From positions 1 to 20,743 of the IMG/VR virus record IMGVR_UViG_3300036985_003341: DNA of 20,743 nt. One strand, 5' to 3'. Positions 1 to 16,837 of the stretch are shown piece after piece (positions within the stretch are counted from its first letter, which is position 1; the number at the start of each line of letters is the position of its first letter). Below the pieces are notes generated by a model. The model did not search any database and had not been told where the DNA came from. It saw only the letters and a list, made by a program, of their open reading frames with translations. The translations under genes and the position numbers were made by a program. The stretch comes from a virus.

Positions 1-1588
1 CACGCTCCCGCTGAACCCGCTCCTGCAACTTGCGGAACTTGCTCTCGGCAGCGTTCAGTTCGTTGACCGCCTTCTTGTACTCAGGCGACACAAGCGGGTC
101 CGCAAGGGCGCGGGTCTTGCGCGTCTCTGCGATTTCCTTGATGAGTGTGGCGCGCTTGGCGGGGTCGGTCGTCACCCGAAGTTCGTCCAGGGCTTCCTTC
201 ATGCGCTGCGTGTGCCCGCCGACAGCCGCCTTGGATTGCGCGTCCATCTCCTTGCGGGACTCGCGCAGTTGCTCAAAGATTTCCTTGGTCGCCATAAGGT
301 CGCGATCAATGTCAATGGCTTCAACGCCTTGCTTTGCCGCACCCTCGGTTGCCTTCTTGGCGTCCACAATCTCAAAGTCGTCGCCGACCTGCTTGAGCCC
401 AAGGGTGGCAGCCTCGCCTGCCTCGGTCACGCGCTGCGGGCGGGCAACAACGGCAGGCGTGCCGTACTCGTCGCCGGTTCGCACGATGCCCTCTCGCGCT
501 ACCGTCTCGCCGACCTGCGACCCGTAACCCTCCAACTCGCGCCCGATACGGGTGGACTCCGACACCATGTTCTGCGTGACCGCTTCAACGGCGGGGTCGT
601 CCTGCGAACGATAGTCCTCGCCCATGCGGCGCAGTTTGGCACCCATGCGAGAGGCTACCCTACCGAGTGCAGGGGACGCTGCGCCGACGACTGCGGGGAT
701 GTTGGGTGCCAATGCTCCGAGAGCCGCGCCGACCATAGGGGCGCCGAAGGCTGCTCCAAGCACCGCACCGACCTGGGCGCCACCACCGGAAGCCTGCGTG
801 CGAGAGAGCGCCTGCCCAACGGGGCGAAGCACTTGCCCCATGCGCTGCATCGCCGGGGCGCGTTGCACGGCGGCAGTCGCGGCTCCGGGTTGACCTGCGG
901 CATCGGCGACGCCTTGAGCAACCGGAGTAGGTCCGGGAGTGATTGGCACTTCGCCGGGTTGCACATCCGGCACGCGGGCATTGGCGGTTGGCGCAAACGG
1001 CTCCGGGGCCTTGCCTGCAAGCCGGAACGCTTTGACGCCCTTGCTGATAGCCTGCAATGCGAGGATGGCCGCAAGTGAAGTCTCCACCGGCTGATAGGTG
1101 AACGCGCGCCTAGGGTCTTGACCAATGAGCATCGCCTGCGCGACTTGTCCGGGGCCGACGGCTTGTGCCAACTCCCCGCCGAACGCCTCGTACTGCCCCA
1201 TGCTTTGAGGCGGAATGTCCGCAACAGCCGAGAGCCCTTTCCCGACGAACTTGCCGAGGTTGTCGATGCCGCGCAAGCCGGAGACTGCGGAGGCGTGTTC
1301 CAATCCCTTCGCCGCAACTTCCGCTTGGCGCAATGCCTCGGCTTGCTGAGAGAGTTGCCGGTCAAACGCAGCCTGAGATCCCGTAGGGGCATCGAGGTAC
1401 ATCGACGGGTCGCCGCCGCGCATCGAAGCGTAGTCCGGGGCAGACAGCCACGAACCCGCCTCTTTGAGCGCGCCGTAAGCCATTGGGACCAACGGCAGAA
1501 GCGGGACAGAGACAGGCTCCTTGAGCATTCCGGCAGCCGCCCTCGCGCGCCATGCTGCTCGTTCTGCTGCGCCAAGCGGATCTGCCAT
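1..1588 (-). CDS. Internal virion (ejection) protein candidate, 3' end cut by window edge
   Basis: The frame starts at ATG 1588 after an AGAGGG ribosome binding site, eight bases downstream of the preceding stop. It stays open for 529 codons to base 1, so the C terminus is missing. The protein is Ala/Gly-rich and contains no cysteine. Hydrophobic stretches lie near residues 24-40 and 168-184. A Gly/Ala segment at about 270-308 has glycines at 274, 278, 282, 287 and 291, a glycine-zipper spacing able to insert in membranes. The rest (about 330-529) is charged and helical, with likely coiled coil at 430-529. It is the third gene of a trio resembling in position and size the P22 gp7-gp20-gp16 or T7 gp14-gp15-gp16 ejection proteins. 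That role is inferred from context, not homology. A lytic transglycosylase or other enzymatic domain could lie in the missing part; none is visible here. Confidence 0.85.
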   Translation of the reverse strand, partial: MADPLGAAERAAWRARAAAGMLKEPVSVPLLPLVPMAYGALKEAGSWLSAPDYASMRGGDPSMYLDAPTGSQAAFDRQLSQQAEALRQAEVAAKGLEHASAVSGLRGIDNLGKFVGKGLSAVADIPPQSMGQYEAFGGELAQAVGPGQVAQAMLIGQDPRRAFTYQPVETSLAAILALQAISKGVKAFRLAGKAPEPFAPTANARVPDVQPGEVPITPGPTPVAQGVADAAGQPGAATAAVQRAPAMQRMGQVLRPVGQALSRTQASGGGAQVGAVLGAAFGAPMVGAALGALAPNIPAVVGAASPALGRVASRMGAKLRRMGEDYRSQDDPAVEAVTQNMVSESTRIGRELEGYGSQVGETVAREGIVRTGDEYGTPAVVARPQRVTEAGEAATLGLKQVGDDFEIVDAKKATEGAAKQGVEAIDIDRDLMATKEIFEQLRESRKEMDAQSKAAVGGHTQRMKEALDELRVTTDPAKRATLIKEIAETRKTRALADPLVSPEYKKAVNELNAAESKFRKLQERVQRER

Positions 1589-1596
1589 GATGCCCT

Positions 1597-3912
1597 CTAG
1601 TCCTCGCCGGGTTTGGTGTAACGGGAGTTATTGGTAGGAGCGGTTGGATCGGCGGGAGTTCCGGCTTCCGCCTGCTTGGCGGCGAGGGCTTGCTTGTAGG
1701 CGGCGTTGAATTGCGGCAATCCTTCCAAGTCCTTGATGCGCTTCACAACACCTTCGTCAAGCCCAAGGTAATCAGCCAACTTCTCGCCGGTCGGCAACGC
1801 CGCGTCGCCAATCTGTTCCTTCTTCATGGTCGCCTGAGCGAGCAAAGCCGCCGCACGGTTGACGGCAGCCTCGTTGGACTTTGCCCACTGTGCGACGAGT
1901 TGCGCGTGCCTGTCGCGCTCCATCGAGCCGCGCTCGGGGATGCCCGCCAGGGAGGAGACGGCTTTGGCGGCGTCGGTGTAGAGCCGATCGGCTTCGTCGC
2001 GGACTTTGCGGACCAACTGCGCTTGCTCCTTGGTGGCACCCTTCCCGCCAATCATCAGCGAGAAGCCTTTGCCTTCCTTGGGCTGCTCGTTCAACTTCTT
2101 GAGTTTGAGCAAGTAGTCCACAGGGGTCAACTTGTTGGTGCGGCGAGCCGAGGCCGAGGCGTTGGCGGCGATGCCGTAGTCCTTCGCCATGCCCGCCTTG
2201 GTCTTGGGCACCAGCACTTCGGTCTGAGCCGCGACGTTCTCTGCCGAGGCTTGCGCGCCGACTGCGCGGGCAGCTTGACTGCGAGCGCCGACCTCTGCCG
2301 TGCCAAGGCGGCGAGCCGCGTCTGCCTGCCGGAAGTTCATCCTGTCCGCGTCGACCAGTCCCTTATCTTCCATGCGCTCGCCAACGCGACGCTGGTAGGC
2401 AGCCTTGCTCAAGGCCGTCGCGAGGTCTGATGCGCTCTCAGGCGCCTGCGTAACGCCGGTCAAGGCGCCCATCAGGCGAGTACGTTCCCGCCCAACATGC
2501 GCGCCGCCGAGCAAGTCCGCGAACACCGACTGCGCCCGCGCGCCTCTCATGCTGCTGCGCGAGATGGCGTCGGCAACCTTCTGGATCGCCTCGCGGTCGC
2601 CGGTCGCTTTGGCCTTGGTAATCAAGGCTTCCAACTGCGGCACTGAGTAGTCGTACTCCTCGACCTGCAACGGCTGCCGACGCTGGGCAGAATCCAAATC
2701 CGCAGAGATCGCGCGTTCCGACTGGTCGGGTTGCGACTCTTTGTAGTTCTTCTCCAACTCGGAAACGTACCCCTCGCCCTTACCAATAGCCTCGCCGGCT
2801 TCTTCACGAGCAGGAACGTAGGCTGCCGCGTTCTGCTGCTGCGCCCGTTGAACCTGCTGGGCAATGTCGCCCTGTGCCACGTCCACCTTCTGCTGGAGCG
2901 AGGGTGCTGCCTTCCGAGGACGCGCCTGCGGACGGGGAACAAAACCCGCACCGGGGAGGTAACGCTTGACGACGCCTATCCACGAATTGTCTTTGCCTGC
3001 GCTCAAGTCCTCGGTTTGCGGCTGCTGCTGCTCCAACATCGCGCGGAACTCCGGCGTACCGGGTTGCGGCATCCCCGCCTGCGGAGCGTTGAACAGTCCT
3101 GGAGGCAGAACCTCGTCGCTGCTCATACCTAACAGCACCTCTTGCGGAGGTAGCCCTTGCGGCAGCAAGCGCGGGTCGTAGGGCGCCTTGGGTTGCACGC
3201 TGCGGCGGTCCATCGGCGGGGTGTGCCCCCAATCCAACTGGTCTACTGCTGGCACTGCAAATGCCGCCTGAGCGGGACGTTGCGCCGAAGTCTGAGTGGA
3301 GCCGACAGCGCCCATGCCAAGCATAAGGTCGGCGGCGCGGGAGCGGGCATCCCTCTCGGGAGTGTTGCCGTCGTCGAGGCGCATCCGGTATGGATTGGCA
3401 GGCTGCATAGAGCGCGGCAACTGCTGCGGAATCTGTGGCACCGGAACTTGAGGCAGCATGTCCATGCCGGGGATAGGCGCCCGCAGGCGCTCCATCGGGG
3501 ACATACCAACAGGGTCAACCCCGCCAAAGAATTGCGGGTCAGGCTGCACGATGGGCGGCGCAAGCGCCTCCTCGTAACTGCGCCGCCCTGCTCTCTCCGG
3601 GGGAGGTTGCATCGAAGCCATGGCGCCACGCTCTGCACCGCTTTGCAGTAACGCATTGGCAGCTCGCGCCCGCCCAATCTCGGCCAGGCCAGCATCCGCC
3701 GCCTGCACTTGCGACTCGACGTTACTGTTCGCCAACCCGACGATGCCGGGTCCAATCAGTTCGTTGCCCAGCACAGAGCCGATTTGCACGGCTTTGCCCG
3801 CCATATCGAGGCCCTGCCCCACGTCCTGCATAGTGTCGCGCCCGAAGGTGCGAGGGCCGCGACGTTCGCCGGCAAACAGTGCCGCCTGCGGATTGACGAT
3901 GATGCGCCCCAC
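1597..3912 (-). CDS. Large Pro/Ala/Gln-rich internal virion protein candidate (771 aa)
   Basis: Start is GTG 3912, five bases after AGGAGG, nine bases downstream of the previous gene. Residues 34-63 form a Gly-rich hydrophobic stretch that could touch a membrane. Residues about 102-337 are unusually rich in proline, glutamine and methionine and look disordered. From about 338 onward the protein is Ala/Gln/Lys/Glu-rich and probably mostly helical. There is no cysteine in 771 residues and no enzymatic motif that I recognise. Its place as second of three similar genes after the tail proteins matches the ejection-protein block of short-tailed phages. Its length is above P22 gp20 (471 aa) and close to T7 gp15 (747 aa). 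The specific role is inferred; coding status is secure. Confidence 0.85.
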   Translation of the reverse strand: MGRIIVNPQAALFAGERRGPRTFGRDTMQDVGQGLDMAGKAVQIGSVLGNELIGPGIVGLANSNVESQVQAADAGLAEIGRARAANALLQSGAERGAMASMQPPPERAGRRSYEEALAPPIVQPDPQFFGGVDPVGMSPMERLRAPIPGMDMLPQVPVPQIPQQLPRSMQPANPYRMRLDDGNTPERDARSRAADLMLGMGAVGSTQTSAQRPAQAAFAVPAVDQLDWGHTPPMDRRSVQPKAPYDPRLLPQGLPPQEVLLGMSSDEVLPPGLFNAPQAGMPQPGTPEFRAMLEQQQPQTEDLSAGKDNSWIGVVKRYLPGAGFVPRPQARPRKAAPSLQQKVDVAQGDIAQQVQRAQQQNAAAYVPAREEAGEAIGKGEGYVSELEKNYKESQPDQSERAISADLDSAQRRQPLQVEEYDYSVPQLEALITKAKATGDREAIQKVADAISRSSMRGARAQSVFADLLGGAHVGRERTRLMGALTGVTQAPESASDLATALSKAAYQRRVGERMEDKGLVDADRMNFRQADAARRLGTAEVGARSQAARAVGAQASAENVAAQTEVLVPKTKAGMAKDYGIAANASASARRTNKLTPVDYLLKLKKLNEQPKEGKGFSLMIGGKGATKEQAQLVRKVRDEADRLYTDAAKAVSSLAGIPERGSMERDRHAQLVAQWAKSNEAAVNRAAALLAQATMKKEQIGDAALPTGEKLADYLGLDEGVVKRIKDLEGLPQFNAAYKQALAAKQAEAGTPADPTAPTNNSRYTKPGED

Positions 3913-3921
3913 GGTGCCCTC

Positions 3922-4575
3922 CTATACGTCGATGTTGCCCTTGCGGACTTGGTTCGCAAGGTAGAGCGCGTGATTCTTGCCAGCTCCGGGAGGCAGAGTG
4001 GCGGCGTAGGATTCAAGCGAAGCGGCCACATCCTCGTCCTCGCCCACCCAATTGTTTGAGTTGGCGGCGACAATCTCGTCGAACTTGTCGTTCACGATGT
4101 TCACTTCGGCTGCGTCGTCGTCGGCGCCTGTGCCGGCTTCGGCCTCAAAGGCGACCTGATCCATGAGCGCCTGTGCCGCCTTCTCGCGGGCACCGTAGAT
4201 GCTCTCGTCGGTCTGCGCTTGGAGTTGTTGCCGCATCGCCTGCTGCTGCAATCCGAGTTGCGCCAACCCCTGCCCCGCCTGGTTCTGAGCTTGGAGCATC
4301 GCGCCATACCCGCCCATGCCGCCTGACTGCCCCGCATTAGCGGCAAGACCCTCGGCAGCCTGCTGCGTCAAGTCCTGCTTCTGAGCGCCAAACTCCTTGC
4401 CCTGCGCGCCAAGCATGTCAGCCGCAGCCTTCTGCTTGGCAGACACGCCTTGGTTGGCGAGGTCGGTCTGCGACTTCTTAGCCGCAACCGCCTGCTGCCG
4501 CAACCCGGCTTTGGTCTTGATTGCGGCCATATCGGCAGCGCCGCCCTTGAGATGCACGTTGATGGGGTCCGCCAT
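3922..4575 (-). CDS. Small Ala/Gln-rich internal virion protein candidate (217 aa)
   Basis: ATG 4575 follows a GAGGT ribosome binding site by five bases, and the gene begins three bases after the preceding stop. Residues about 12-80 are Ala/Gln/Lys-rich and helical. A Gly/Met hinge lies at 82-92, and a second Gln-rich helix spans about 96-147. An acidic segment (150-182) precedes a short C-terminal helical region. No cysteine and no transmembrane segment are present. P22 gp7 is about 229 aa and is the first gene of the P22 ejection block, so size and position agree with a first ejection protein. An alternative is a structural linker between tail and core. I see no sequence motif that proves either. 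Confidence 0.8.
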   Translation of the reverse strand: MADPINVHLKGGAADMAAIKTKAGLRQQAVAAKKSQTDLANQGVSAKQKAAADMLGAQGKEFGAQKQDLTQQAAEGLAANAGQSGGMGGYGAMLQAQNQAGQGLAQLGLQQQAMRQQLQAQTDESIYGAREKAAQALMDQVAFEAEAGTGADDDAAEVNIVNDKFDEIVAANSNNWVGEDEDVAASLESYAATLPPGAGKNHALYLANQVRKGNIDV

Positions 4576-11517: not shown

Positions 11518-12087
11518 CTATTTTTTCAATGGAGCCCGCGTTCCCCACTCAGATTGCGACCCTGCCGGAGCCGCATCCAACTCCTCTTGCGTCAACCTCC
11601 GACCAGGGTAAGTTCTAAACTTACTTACACCCCGAACGGAGTGATCAATGGGTCTGCGGATCTGTTGACCACTTGCCGTGTACTCGCCAGTTGTCGGGTC
11701 TAACCCTGCGTTAGCCCTAGCGAATGCGGCGGCGTCACGCTCAGATGCGCGGTCACGTTGGGCTAAGACCTGATTTTTATAATTCGGCATAAAATCACTA
11801 TCTCCCTGGTAGACGCGGGTGTCGACATCATGCAAGAACCCCTCACCTTGAGATGCGACAGGTGCAAGTTCGCGCCCCGACTGCAAAGCATCTGTCGGCT
11901 CGTTGGCGCGTCGAAGATCACGTTCTCTTTTCCTATCCCCGCGCCCACTATCTTCATACTCTGTGCTGTCAATTTTTGCATGGCGTCTGTCAGCCAACTT
12001 CCCGCGACGCATTTGATCGGCGCGAATTGCGTCATCTCGATCCTGCGCCTCTAACAACTTTTTTGCCGCTTCTTGTCTTGGCTTCAT
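11518..12087 (-). CDS. Highly charged, low-GC protein downstream of portal (189 aa)
   Basis: ATG 12087 begins one base past the portal TAG, with GGGGG about seven bases upstream. The stop TAG forms part of the ribosome binding site (TAGGAGG) of the next gene. Residues 1-75 are dominated by Arg, Lys, Asp and Glu and probably form a charged helix or disordered tail. The remainder is Gln/Arg/Ala-rich with scattered aromatic residues. No cysteine or membrane segment is visible. Three sampled 60-base lines have 47-52% GC, clearly below the capsid gene (about 72% in one line). This gene and the 164-aa gene after the adaptor share this composition. I recognise no family. Possible roles are a portal-associated or head-completion accessory, or a recently gained gene. 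Confidence 0.78.
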   Translation of the reverse strand: MKPRQEAAKKLLEAQDRDDAIRADQMRRGKLADRRHAKIDSTEYEDSGRGDRKRERDLRRANEPTDALQSGRELAPVASQGEGFLHDVDTRVYQGDSDFMPNYKNQVLAQRDRASERDAAAFARANAGLDPTTGEYTASGQQIRRPIDHSVRGVSKFRTYPGRRLTQEELDAAPAGSQSEWGTRAPLKK

Positions 12088-12089
12088 AC

Positions 12090-14051
12090 CTAACCCCCTA
12101 TCGTCCCGCTCGTAGACCCGTTGCCCGCAAGCGCGTCGCCCGGCGTGTGTTCCATGTCGCCTTCGCCCATCGGACGCGGACCCGGAACACCCTGCTGCTC
12201 AGGCGGCACCAACTGCGGGGCAGCCGGGAACACCTTGGCGGAAGCGAGCGCCTTGATCTGCTCTGCGCCTGTTCCCATCGGAACCGACACAGATACAAGC
12301 ACTTCCCGAATGTAGTCCTGCACCATCGCCGCCTCAAGCAAGGTCTGCTGTGCGGTCGGGTCGCCGGAACGCTGCGCCTCTAGCGCGAGGTTCATCTCCT
12401 CGTAGTACGCAGGCGAGTTGATGAATTCCTCGAACACGTCCTTGATTGCCTCAAGGTCGTCGGAGGGGAAGATTTCAATCTGCTGGCCCATACGGCAGGC
12501 AGCGAGCAGGTCTTGCGCGTGCGAGAGCGCGACCATCTTCTTGCTTGCCGACTTCTGGCCAAGCTTGAGCGAAGTCTCTTTGAGGTACTCCGCAGGCTGG
12601 ATCACGCCCGCCGTCACAAGGTTCATGAGCCTGCGCTCGCGGTCCTCTTGCGTCACAGCGAACAGGCTGCCCATCTCAATGAACACCTCGGGGTTGCCCA
12701 CCAGGTCGGTTCCTGCGACCTCCTTGAACACCACCGCGCCCGCAGCCTCGTCGAAGAACTTGATGTTCTGCGACTCCGGCAAGTACGTCTGCCAGTAGAC
12801 GAGAGCGACCCGCAGCGCGTCGGCAACGGCATCCTCTACATCGTCCATCGTGGCGCGTAGTTGTCCGAGGTCGTTCTCGCTCAAAGCCTCAATAGCCTTG
12901 CCCGAGGTCACACCTGAAGCTCGCTTGCCCATCGTGGTCGAGTGGATACCCGACACGTCCATCATCTCGCCGAGCGCCCGCGTCTGAATCTCAAAGAGAT
13001 GTGGCGGGACTGCCGGGGCAGCCTGCCTTTGCGGCGCCGGGGCGTGCGGCTGGTAGAAGATCGGCTTGCCCGGCTCGTTGGTCAGGTGCCCTGGATTGAC
13101 ACCGCTGTTGAACGGCACAACCCACACCGGGTTAGAGATAGCGTCGGCAATGTCGAGCCCGAAGTTCTTGAAGCGGTTGATCTGCCATTGCAAGTCAAGC
13201 AAAGGCCACAGCACCGGCTGCCCGTAGATCCGATTGGCAATCGCGTGCGCCCGGTACGGCATGACCGGCATAACGCCTTGTGGCGTCCGCCCTTTGTAAA
13301 GGTAGGTCGTCTCTTGGTTGCCGAGTAGAATAAAGTGCCGCCCGTCACGGTGGTAAACCTCCCAGGTTTCAACCCGGTCGGTCGGCATCTTGGTGCGCTG
13401 GTCGCTGCTGCTCAGGGCCGCGCAATCCGCAATCTGCGTAGCGAATTCCGGGTACTGCTCTTTCAAGTCCTCGCGGCGGTAGATATGCCGGATGGCAACC
13501 CAGGCGCTCTCATCATAGGTCTGCGCCCCGTACTCAAACAGGAGGTCGTAGGGCGAGACGCCCTCAATCCCAATCGACTGCTTGGCGGGGTCAAAGAACA
13601 CATGCAGCGCGGCGTTGCCTGCGCCCATCAGCCACCTGTTGTTGGCGGCGAGGATGCGCTTGACCTTGTTGGCCGAGTACAGGTAGCGGCACACCATCTC
13701 GGCAGCAAGCGCCTTGGTGATGTCGTCCCAACTCGGCGATCCGGGGACCACCGTAAACTTGGGCGTCGCGGTAGACATGAGCCCGCGCCACGTCCTGTCG
13801 ACCTGCAAAAGCTGATTGGTGATGGTCGAATTTTTACCAGGGGTGGACGTGATAGCGCGGATCTTGGTGCGAGCGCGGTCAAACTCATAGTTCTGGTCGC
13901 CCGCAAGTTGGCGAAAGCACAGATCCCAGGTCATTACCTCTTGGAGCCTGTCACTTCTCGCCTTCTCGATTTCGGCGCGGAGATTGAGCGGGGTCTTTAC
14001 CTCGTCGACAACCCCGGCTTCGCCTTCCTCAAATTCGTCTTGGTCAATCAC
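12090..14051 (-). CDS. Portal protein (653 aa)
   Basis: GTG 14051 overlaps the preceding stop by four bases (GTGA), a coupling arrangement. Length and profile fit the portal of short-tailed phages. The wing region contains helices at about 23-50 and 75-90. Residues 134-176 hold the NNRWLMGAGNAALHVFFD and GVSPYDLLFE motifs, which resemble the portal clip/stem core. Residues 369-395 contain GIHSTTMGKRASGV, SGKAIEAL and ENDLGQL, matching the conserved portal motif seen near the long crown helices. The C terminus (about 610-653) is Pro/Gly-rich and probably disordered. The protein would form the dodecameric ring at one vertex through which DNA is packaged and released. The adjacent adaptor and nozzle genes support it. 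It sits downstream of scaffold and capsid genes, which is unusual. Confidence 0.92.
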   Translation of the reverse strand: MIDQDEFEEGEAGVVDEVKTPLNLRAEIEKARSDRLQEVMTWDLCFRQLAGDQNYEFDRARTKIRAITSTPGKNSTITNQLLQVDRTWRGLMSTATPKFTVVPGSPSWDDITKALAAEMVCRYLYSANKVKRILAANNRWLMGAGNAALHVFFDPAKQSIGIEGVSPYDLLFEYGAQTYDESAWVAIRHIYRREDLKEQYPEFATQIADCAALSSSDQRTKMPTDRVETWEVYHRDGRHFILLGNQETTYLYKGRTPQGVMPVMPYRAHAIANRIYGQPVLWPLLDLQWQINRFKNFGLDIADAISNPVWVVPFNSGVNPGHLTNEPGKPIFYQPHAPAPQRQAAPAVPPHLFEIQTRALGEMMDVSGIHSTTMGKRASGVTSGKAIEALSENDLGQLRATMDDVEDAVADALRVALVYWQTYLPESQNIKFFDEAAGAVVFKEVAGTDLVGNPEVFIEMGSLFAVTQEDRERRLMNLVTAGVIQPAEYLKETSLKLGQKSASKKMVALSHAQDLLAACRMGQQIEIFPSDDLEAIKDVFEEFINSPAYYEEMNLALEAQRSGDPTAQQTLLEAAMVQDYIREVLVSVSVPMGTGAEQIKALASAKVFPAAPQLVPPEQQGVPGPRPMGEGDMEHTPGDALAGNGSTSGTIGG

Positions 14052-14320
14052 AGCAGCCCCCCGCCGAAGCTGCCCAGTGTTTCGCCGGCGACCATGCCCA
14101 TGCTTGCGCCCTTGGCGATGCCGGCAGGGCCAGCGTTACTACCAATGAAGCCGCCGATAAGACCGCCAAGGATCTTGCCCCCGGTGCCCATAGCACCTTG
14201 CAAGTCAGCCTTGCGCTTGCGATTCAGTTTCTCAAGAGCCGTTTCCTGCGGAACAGGTGCGGCGCCGCCCATGAGTTCCTGCGCTGCCGCTGCTCGCGGG
14301 TTGAAAGCGTAGGGGTCCAC
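14048..14320 (-). CDS. Glycine-zipper membrane-active protein candidate (90 aa)
   Basis: GTG 14320 follows AGGAGG by four bases. The last bases overlap the portal start (GTGA). The N-terminal 45 residues are polar with a basic patch (KLNRKRK, 31-37). Residues 48-83 are hydrophobic with regular glycines: G52, G56 and G60 in the first half, then G71, G75, G79 and G83 in the second half, separated by SNAGPAG. Glycines at every fourth position (glycine zippers) let helices pack tightly in membranes. A helical hairpin of two such segments would fit a membrane-inserting or channel-forming small protein. I do not recognise a holin or known family. Its place directly before the portal suggests a virion or head role. 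Function is inferred from composition only. Confidence 0.8.
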   Translation of the reverse strand: MDPYAFNPRAAAAQELMGGAAPVPQETALEKLNRKRKADLQGAMGTGGKILGGLIGGFIGSNAGPAGIAKGASMGMVAGETLGSFGGGLL

Positions 14321-14328
14321 GGCGCCTC

Positions 14329-14586
14329 CTATTCGTTTAGGTCGTTGAGATTCGGCCCGTAGTCGTTGATGGTCTGCTCGCCAGTAGCGCGCATATGTTG
14401 CGCTACAACCTCGGCGGCGCTGCGAATCGCAGGGTCCGGTTCAGGCGGGGCAAGGTCGTGCATCTTTCGCACTTCGCCCTCTACCTGCTGAAGAACGCTG
14501 CCGACCGCCGAGCACATCGAAGCCAAGCCCCACATACCAATCTTGGCATACTGAACTGCGGCAACGATGCGCTCGGCGTTCTTCAC
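14329..14586 (-). CDS. Small unknown protein in the capsid-portal gap (85 aa)
   Basis: GTG 14586 begins three bases after the previous stop, with an AGGA site about eight bases upstream. The first 35 residues form an amphipathic or weakly hydrophobic helix (MWGLASMCSAVGSVL, 18-32). Residues 36-48 are charged. After a Pro/Glu linker (47-53) a second helix (54-70) follows. The C terminus is polar, with Asn and Asp. I do not recognise a family. Tight spacing to neighbours on both sides, a ribosome site and the same strand argue for a real gene in the late operon. Confidence 0.75.
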   Translation of the reverse strand: MKNAERIVAAVQYAKIGMWGLASMCSAVGSVLQQVEGEVRKMHDLAPPEPDPAIRSAAEVVAQHMRATGEQTINDYGPNLNDLNE

Positions 14587-15457: not shown

Positions 15458-16837
15458 CTACGAGATGCCGCACAGGACGGCGTGGCGCTGCGGCGCGCAG
15501 AAGAATAGGTTGTCGAACTGCTGCCACGCGCCTTCGTAGGCGGCGGTGCCGGGCACGCGGGTCAGAATGGCGCCGTCCTCGTCCATCCAGCCGGGAGCGG
15601 CGTAGCGGGCGAGGTAGATTTCCTTCTTGCCCTGCAAGAACATCGCGGCGTGCTTGGGCCAGTGCTGCGAGGTCTTGAACTTGATGCCCGCGATGCGCTC
15701 GGCCTGCGGGACCAGATCCGATTCGCGGCCCTGGTTCACAAAATAGCTCGTCGTGCCGGCGACGGCGGCGACGTAGGCGGCGCGCTGCAAGGGGCTCAGG
15801 ATCACGGTGTCCGGGTCCATGTCCGACTTGACCTTGACCTCATCGAACACAGCCTGCACGCGCTGCGCGGTGAGAGCCGTCAGGGCGTGGACGCCCGCGA
15901 CAGCCGAGGTCAGCAGGGTCGACTGCAACGTGGTCGCCGTGCCGGTGGCCGTGGTGCGGTCGATACCCCAGTGGTTCGGGTCGTACAAGTTCCCGAGGAT
16001 GCCGCGCGGCTCCAAGGAGAAGTCGTACTGCGTGCCGAAGTTGACGCCCGCGCTGTCGACGTACTGCGTGTTGTGAACCGCCAGGATGATGCCCTTGCCG
16101 TCCATGCCCGTGCCGAGGGTGGCAGCGGCCAGGTCGAGGGTCGCGCCTGCCGCGTTCGCCACCACCGAGAGGGTGACGGTGCGAGCGGAGGTCGAGAACG
16201 CCGAGACGAACACCGCCGGGTTGGCCGCGCCAGCCGGTAGGACTTCGGCGAGGGTGTCGCTGCGGAACACGCGAACACGGACCCAGGTCAGCGGATTGGC
16301 GGTCACGACGCTGGCGAACGGGCGGAAGTCGCCCTGGTAGTCGTGGATCGCGTCGCCGTTGTTGGGGACCGCAACCGTGCAAGCGCCGCCCGTGGCAGCC
16401 GAGGCGATATGCTCATTGAGGACGCCCTTGCAGCGACCGCCGAACAGGTACGCCTGGTCGTTGAACTGCTTGACGTCATCTTTGACGCGGGTCATCTCTT
16501 GGTCGAGGATGCCAGCGAAGGCGCCGGGGCCGGCGTTGGCAGCGCCCTTCATGGCACGGGTCGAAACCTGAATGCGCGCGGCCAGTTCGCTCGTGGTGAT
16601 GGTCAGGTCGCTGTAACGCTGCTGACCAGCCGCCGGCAGGGTGCCGGACTCGCCAATGAAGCCGATGCCGCTGTTGCGGCCCAGGTGGACCGGCGCCTTG
16701 ATTTCGGAGCCCTGCCACTGGTAGGGGCTCTCCTCGATGATGTCGGCAATCAGCGCCTCGTTGTTCAGAGACTCGCTGATCTTCTTGGTGTAGAAACGCT
16801 TGAGGATTGCACTCGCGGTGCTAAGGGAAGCTGGCAT
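15458..16837 (-). CDS. Major capsid protein, HK97 fold (459 aa)
   Basis: ATG 16837 lies seven bases after AGGAGA. Residues 20-140 follow the pattern of a broad phage capsid family: SESLNNEALIADII, then a PV.LGRN.GIGFIGESGTLPAAGQ segment (about 49-72) with regular glycines, and a helix ending LFGGRCKGVLNE (131-142). A beta insertion spans about 145-260. Residues 318-354 contain a long helix and VILSPLQRAAY, the usual spine-helix and P-loop region of the HK97 fold. The C terminus (about 437-459) includes a FDNLFFCAP strand. Four cysteines in total (136, 153, 447, 456). Scaffold gene immediately upstream and probable decoration gene downstream support the call. Capsid proteins of this type form the icosahedral shell. 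Confidence 0.9.
   Translation of the reverse strand: MPASLSTASAILKRFYTKKISESLNNEALIADIIEESPYQWQGSEIKAPVHLGRNSGIGFIGESGTLPAAGQQRYSDLTITTSELAARIQVSTRAMKGAANAGPGAFAGILDQEMTRVKDDVKQFNDQAYLFGGRCKGVLNEHIASAATGGACTVAVPNNGDAIHDYQGDFRPFASVVTANPLTWVRVRVFRSDTLAEVLPAGAANPAVFVSAFSTSARTVTLSVVANAAGATLDLAAATLGTGMDGKGIILAVHNTQYVDSAGVNFGTQYDFSLEPRGILGNLYDPNHWGIDRTTATGTATTLQSTLLTSAVAGVHALTALTAQRVQAVFDEVKVKSDMDPDTVILSPLQRAAYVAAVAGTTSYFVNQGRESDLVPQAERIAGIKFKTSQHWPKHAAMFLQGKKEIYLARYAAPGWMDEDGAILTRVPGTAAYEGAWQQFDNLFFCAPQRHAVLCGIS

Follow-up and report, generated by a model that had tools for sequence, protein, structure and literature searches.

The window analysed here is a 20,743-nt fragment from an uncultured virus, and all of its late genes lie on the minus strand. 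The head part of the gene order runs from the large terminase through a Gln-rich probable scaffold and the major capsid protein (MCP) to four small genes (149, 108, 85 and 90 aa) and the portal. After the portal follow a 189-aa gene, a gene that weakly resembles the SU10 adaptor, the tail genes, and finally three genes coding for 217, 771 and at least 529 aa. The 90-aa gene encodes a glycine-zipper protein directly before the portal, and its features and neighbours are collected in Table 1. The capsid gene precedes the portal gene, and this order (TerL-scaffold-MCP-portal) is common to the whole lineage; the usual order is portal-scaffold-MCP.

Table 1. Position and supporting evidence of the features discussed in the text.
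Feature	Position	Strand	Evidence or remark
90-aa glycine-zipper protein gene, GTG start	14048..14320	-	ORF and homologues
Shine-Dalgarno AGGAGG	14325..14330	-	4 nt upstream of the zipper gene GTG; overlaps the 85-aa gene stop
Motif R-A-A-A-A-Q-E-L in the zipper protein	14273..14296	-	within predicted short helix, residues 8-17
Zipper segment 1, residues 48-60	14141..14179	-	G48 19/20, G52 19/20, G56 17/20 homologues
Zipper segment 2, residues 67-87	14060..14122	-	G71 18/20, G75 20/20, G79 15/20 homologues
Major capsid protein gene, upstream bound of the interval	15458..16837	-	PHROG major head protein 2e-26
85-aa protein upstream of the zipper gene, its N-terminal helix weakly hydrophobic	14329..14586	-	74% identical in L066
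Portal gene, P22/SU10 type	12090..14051	-	Pfam P22_portal 5e-15, PHROG portal 4e-26
189-aa protein directly downstream of the portal, start MKPRQEAAKKLLEAQ, carries R-x-x-A-A-x-x-[LMI]	11518..12087	-	sequence and motif scan
217-aa zipper-less protein in the gp7 place of the presumed ejection cluster	3922..4575	-	position and size
771-aa presumed second ejection protein	1597..3912	-	position and size only; MGRI- start common to several relatives
Presumed third (large) ejection protein, 529 aa seen, cut by the window edge, motif near start	2..1588	-	position only

The stop codon of the zipper gene (TGA, 14048-14050) shares the bases GTGA with the portal start (GTG, 14049-14051), which is the 4-base overlap described in the initial annotation. 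The glycines listed there (52, 56, 60 and 71, 75, 79, 83) and the SNAGPAG linker between the two segments were all found at their places, and the glycine chains proved longer than first noted, at 48-52-56-60-64 and 67-71-75-79-83-87. A chance Gly-rich frame in low-complexity, GC-rich DNA could also give a sequence so rich in Gly and Ala, and a long antisense ORF (13335-14312, plus strand) overlaps the gene. Against such a coding artefact, the gene has a Shine-Dalgarno site and start/stop coupling, its length and position are conserved, and homologues occur in other lineages too. Compared with the related locus L066 it also showed codon-level constraint, with pN (0.38) lower than pS (0.63) and a dN/dS of about 0.38, a ratio to be read with the high dS of this pair. 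Because of these conservation data a chance ORF is excluded for practical purposes. The antisense 325-aa ORF was itself rejected as an artefact of GC-rich DNA.

In composition-preserving shuffles, 10 or more GxxxG pairs gave P = 0.0005 for the whole 90-aa protein and 0.011 inside its Gly-rich half. The GxxxG excess within this single sequence was moderate, with P between 0.0005 and 0.03 according to the null. Alignment-free counts over 30 homologues showed glycine pairs strongly enriched over shuffles at lag 4 (z = +8.2) and lag 8 (z = +4.5), and depleted at lags 1, 2, 3, and 6. G48, G52, G71, and G75 were kept in 90-100% of a 20-member alignment. Loss of the spacing in homologues had been named at the outset as the finding that would speak against the zipper; the lag-4 signal indicates that the spacing is kept. 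As judged from these sequence comparisons, conservation among homologues is decisive in setting the glycine spacing apart from chance, and repeated GxxxG in two adjacent, conserved segments is the pattern of a glycine-zipper hairpin.

Searching with three aligned portals gave 62 loci, whose portals are about 33-77% identical to the window portal (one is 100% identical). Among the non-redundant loci with both capsid and portal, 25 of 26 had an intervening ORF with a hydrophobic two-segment small-residue zipper (zipper score at least 6). In the 26th (L140 group) the glycines are present and charged residues lower the hydropathy. The zipper ORF stands immediately before the portal in about 17 of these loci and two to five genes upstream elsewhere. 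L006/L066 are the closest relatives of full length; their homologue at this place has 92 aa, is 54% identical and shows the GTGA overlap too, and about 25 other lineages carry homologues there. Family members are 90 to 410 aa long and share a charged N-terminal helix followed by a hairpin with a G/P/A-rich turn, to which the longer members add a variable tail. The zipper protein is a family trait across a lineage of uncultured phages, and the homologues beside other portals that the initial annotation had suggested looking for do exist. Its remark that the gene might be misplaced among the head genes is at odds with the capsid-portal position, which is typical of the lineage. Used directly as a query, the 90-aa sequence detected no homologues among viral contigs and phage records, and neither did the zipper protein of one relative. 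The portals of the lineage gave only distant matches to cultured phages and no match in genome contigs.

Other small proteins occupy the same interval in some relatives. L070 and L113 have a short TM protein where the window has its 85-aa protein. In one sublineage (L131 4822-4980, L137, L146, L153) a Lys-rich 50-52-aa protein lies directly before the portal with a 4-nt overlap and matches PHROG 2423, of unknown function (E = 2e-16). In many distantly related portal loci (L075-L105, e.g., L091 5235-5588 and L103 4635-4991), the ORF overlapping the portal start encodes another small membrane-type protein, with one N-terminal hydrophobic helix and a charged helical tail.

The best 19-residue Kyte-Doolittle mean of the 90-aa protein was 1.23 and its octanol-scale sum +1.8, both under the usual TM thresholds. 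P22 gp7 (1.31 and −0.6) and T7 gp14 (1.31 and −0.1) were equally borderline by the same measures; both are ejected and assigned to the host envelope (PMC8954989). AlphaFold placed helices at residues 8-17, 28-46, 48-61, and 64-86, and the model of the L118 homologue had a similar helix order. Mean pLDDT was low (55 for the window protein, 54 for L118, and about 45-50 in the zipper helices of the window protein), so the models serve as a hint of secondary structure only. The two zipper segments described at first are real, but their hydrophobicity was overstated; the transmembrane and structure predictions that the initial annotation proposed gave helices across the zipper in both models, but with low confidence and borderline hydropathy. 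We infer that the zipper may insert into a membrane.

We ranked 90 late proteins of T7, P22, Sf6, epsilon15, LUZ24, and SU10 according to how strong a hydrophobic two-segment zipper they carry. No more than four had a module as strong as that of the window protein, with a score of 10 or more, namely P22 gp7, Sf6 gp11, SU10 gp22, and LUZ24 gp53, in all of them at or near the C-terminus. No holin, portal, capsid or tail protein in this set of six podoviruses reached 10. The T7 ejection proteins, including gp14, scored low, so the module is not universal among ejection proteins. The window protein has its two-segment zipper at the C-terminus, as do P22 gp7, Sf6 gp11, and SU10 gp22. P22 gp7 is a proven ejection protein that leaves the particle upon infection (PMC8402733), the SU10 virion contains gp20-24 but no longer does so after genome release (PMC9509320), and LUZ24 gp53 is annotated as a phage particle protein. 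Packaging still occurs with a gp7 fragment of residues 21-154 that lacks the C-terminal region and its zipper (PMC8402733), in keeping with an N-terminal part for packaging and a C-terminal part that does the work.

The resemblance to these proteins differs from case to case. P22 gp7 and the gp7-like Sf6 gp11, the smallest ejection proteins of P22-like phages, share with the window protein a similar borderline hydropathy and, at the extreme C-terminus, a glycine zipper of two segments whose turn contains P. Unlike it, they are 229-230 aa long, have a long Gln/Ala-rich N-terminal part, show no detectable homology to it, and have their genes in the ejection cluster that follows the tail genes instead of ahead of the portal. 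SU10 gp22, a Kuravirus ejection protein, has a comparable C-terminal hairpin (GGFLGGAMSGAAAGSSFGPWGALAGGVIGG), and the SU10 portal and adaptor models weakly match the window portal and adaptor; gp22 is, however, 322 aa long and lies in the gp20-24 ejection cluster within another gene order. The zipper of LUZ24 gp53 (GLGSALGALGGASLGALFGGPAGASVGMNAG) has the same GPAG turn, but the protein has 313 aa, its gene lies away from the portal, and its role is unproven. Four relatives of the window protein matched Pfam Gly-zipper_Omp (best E = 1e-4) and others YMGG or Rick_17kDa_Anti, while the window protein itself matched none of these glycine-zipper models, which describe a motif and not one function. 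The T6SS effector Tde1 also has consecutive GxxxG in two helices, although as part of a bacterial toxin; its N-terminal glycine zipper permeabilises the target membrane, and tape measure proteins of phages are relatives of this zipper region (PMC10240207).

When an HMM of the zipper core was used for searching, P22 gp7 and SU10 gp22 did not rise above decoys and no gp7/gp14 homology was seen; the zipper protein also had no significant PHROG match of the gp7/gp14 class. Given this HMM result, the tie to gp7 and gp22 is stated as a likeness, not as homology or membership. Weak Pfam and PHROG matches (DUF6861, tape measure, others) were set aside as glycine-zipper composition. The virion and DNA-entry role put forward in the initial annotation gains from finding the module in ejection proteins (gp7, gp11, gp22) and a particle protein (gp53) and in no other tested late protein, but this is likeness without homology.

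One rival reading is a small portal-associated protein that never enters a membrane. In T7, two small genes shortly upstream of the portal encode gp6.7 (88 aa) and gp7.3 (99 aa), virion proteins of which the first wraps around the portal barrel and the second forms a lining of the tail channel; the virion loses both on infection (PMC11784390). A portal or core adaptor or assembly factor of this kind would bind the portal barrel or tail channel in the virion, and its zipper would pack a soluble oligomer, which the borderline hydropathy of the window protein would fit. Neither T7 protein has a two-segment glycine-zipper hairpin or meaningful hydropathy, however; gp7.3 is Lys-rich, gp6.7 lacks a long helical half, and we found no similarity of sequence or composition to the window protein. 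We consider such an adaptor unlikely, though with an appreciable minor share of the probability. The PHROG matches of the window protein are weak and driven by composition, and would also allow a protein of some unknown type, active in decoration, head completion or host interaction, in which the zipper serves oligomerisation only. The restriction of the module in the reference phages to ejection-type or particle proteins makes this quite unlikely.

The second role first suggested was that of a small holin-like protein in the head operon, and we weighed other lysis proteins together with it. The protein is indeed small and Gly-rich with two helices, and one relative has a weak match to a holin Pfam model (E = 0.36). 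The window protein has no holin family match and, at its borderline hydropathy, no clear TM segments; no reference holin has the module, and the N-terminal motif described below, shared with presumed virion proteins, would be unexpected in a holin. Several relatives moreover carry separate, strongly hydrophobic and weakly holin-like genes adjoining the zipper gene in the capsid-portal interval (in L149 of 74 aa, PHROG holin E = 0.0014; in L131 of 76 aa, octanol sum −14), which weakens the holin reading to the point of being improbable. Tandem small hydrophobic genes lie between the zipper gene and the portal in L131 (4386-4796), L149 (973-1380), and L151 (4207-4611), and consist of a holin-like protein starting MDKxKSRKLWLSLLAALLP and a 57-aa TM protein. 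It is possible that these pairs are lysis genes in the head operon.

The first 60 residues of 197 protein clusters of the lineage were scanned for the motif R-x-x-A-A-x-x-[LMI], with 500 shuffles. It was present in 17 clusters against 1.1 expected (shuffle maximum 6). Permuted control motifs were found in 1 to 9 clusters; the highest, R...AA.[LMI], is raised partly because Ala runs satisfy both motifs. Among the zipper proteins 9 of 30 members carry the motif against 0.6 expected. The other carriers are proteins at the gp7 position, small portal-flanking proteins (the 189-aa protein in the window), and the large protein at the window edge. Terminase, capsid, portal, and tail proteins were not among the carriers in the 197 clusters, and the motif was not found in the reference phages. 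Sites in otherwise unrelated small proteins were seen in the window at 12055-12078 and near 1588 (minus strand) and in L116, L117, L155, L176, L179, L180, and L182. T4 has a capsid targeting sequence (PMC7697877), and by analogy the shared motif may be a head-targeting signal.

All eight related contigs compared carry, in the downstream region, genes for proteins of 198-259 aa, 560-837 aa, and 1.2-1.5 kaa one after the other, an arrangement like that of gp7/gp20/gp16 or gp14/15/16. No tested protein of this cluster matched a known family, the presumed third ejection protein of the window included, so the cluster is assigned by order and size only. The first protein, at the gp7 position, had neither a zipper nor a strong hydrophobic segment in the eight relatives and in the window. 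The zipper gene itself lies outside this cluster, before the portal, and the 217-aa gene holds the gp7 position. Tentatively, and with low confidence, the whole lineage may have split its first ejection protein into a zipper-less packaged body at the gp7 position and a portal-coupled zipper membrane gene, with the shared motif sending several internal proteins into the head as the T4 sequence does. Since the 217-aa protein had no match in 12 related contigs, this idea draws only on position and on the absence of the zipper.

The 90-aa protein is best explained, with a probability of about 0.5, as a small, minor component of the virion that belongs to the ejection type and is membrane-active through its C-terminal hairpin. 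In favour of this reading are the module carried by proven ejection proteins, the shared motif, and the conservation of both the glycine spacing and the capsid-portal position. The lack of detectable homology to gp7 and gp22, the sub-threshold hydropathy, and the low pLDDT stand against it. We infer that the protein is located in the virion and ejected. Its N-terminal part, the short helix with the R-x-x-A-A-x-x-L motif and a charged helix, would dock it in the assembling head near the scaffold or portal, and the glycine-zipper helical hairpin would stay packed as an oligomer inside the virion. After ejection via portal and tail, the hairpin may insert in the host envelope and help to form or seal a DNA-entry channel. 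The protein would then act like the C-terminal module of P22 gp7 or SU10 gp22, but as a separate gene translated just before the portal. The nearest cultured portals (about 23-25% identity) come from phages of actinobacteria, and an outer-membrane role would fail if the host is Gram-positive.

The protein bears on how short-tailed phages carry a membrane channel inside the head and deploy it. A 90-aa stand-alone version of a possible membrane module would be a minimal system for insertion and pore formation. If the shared packaging motif holds true, it would give a sequence handle to predict the internal virion proteins of uncultured phages where homology searches fail.
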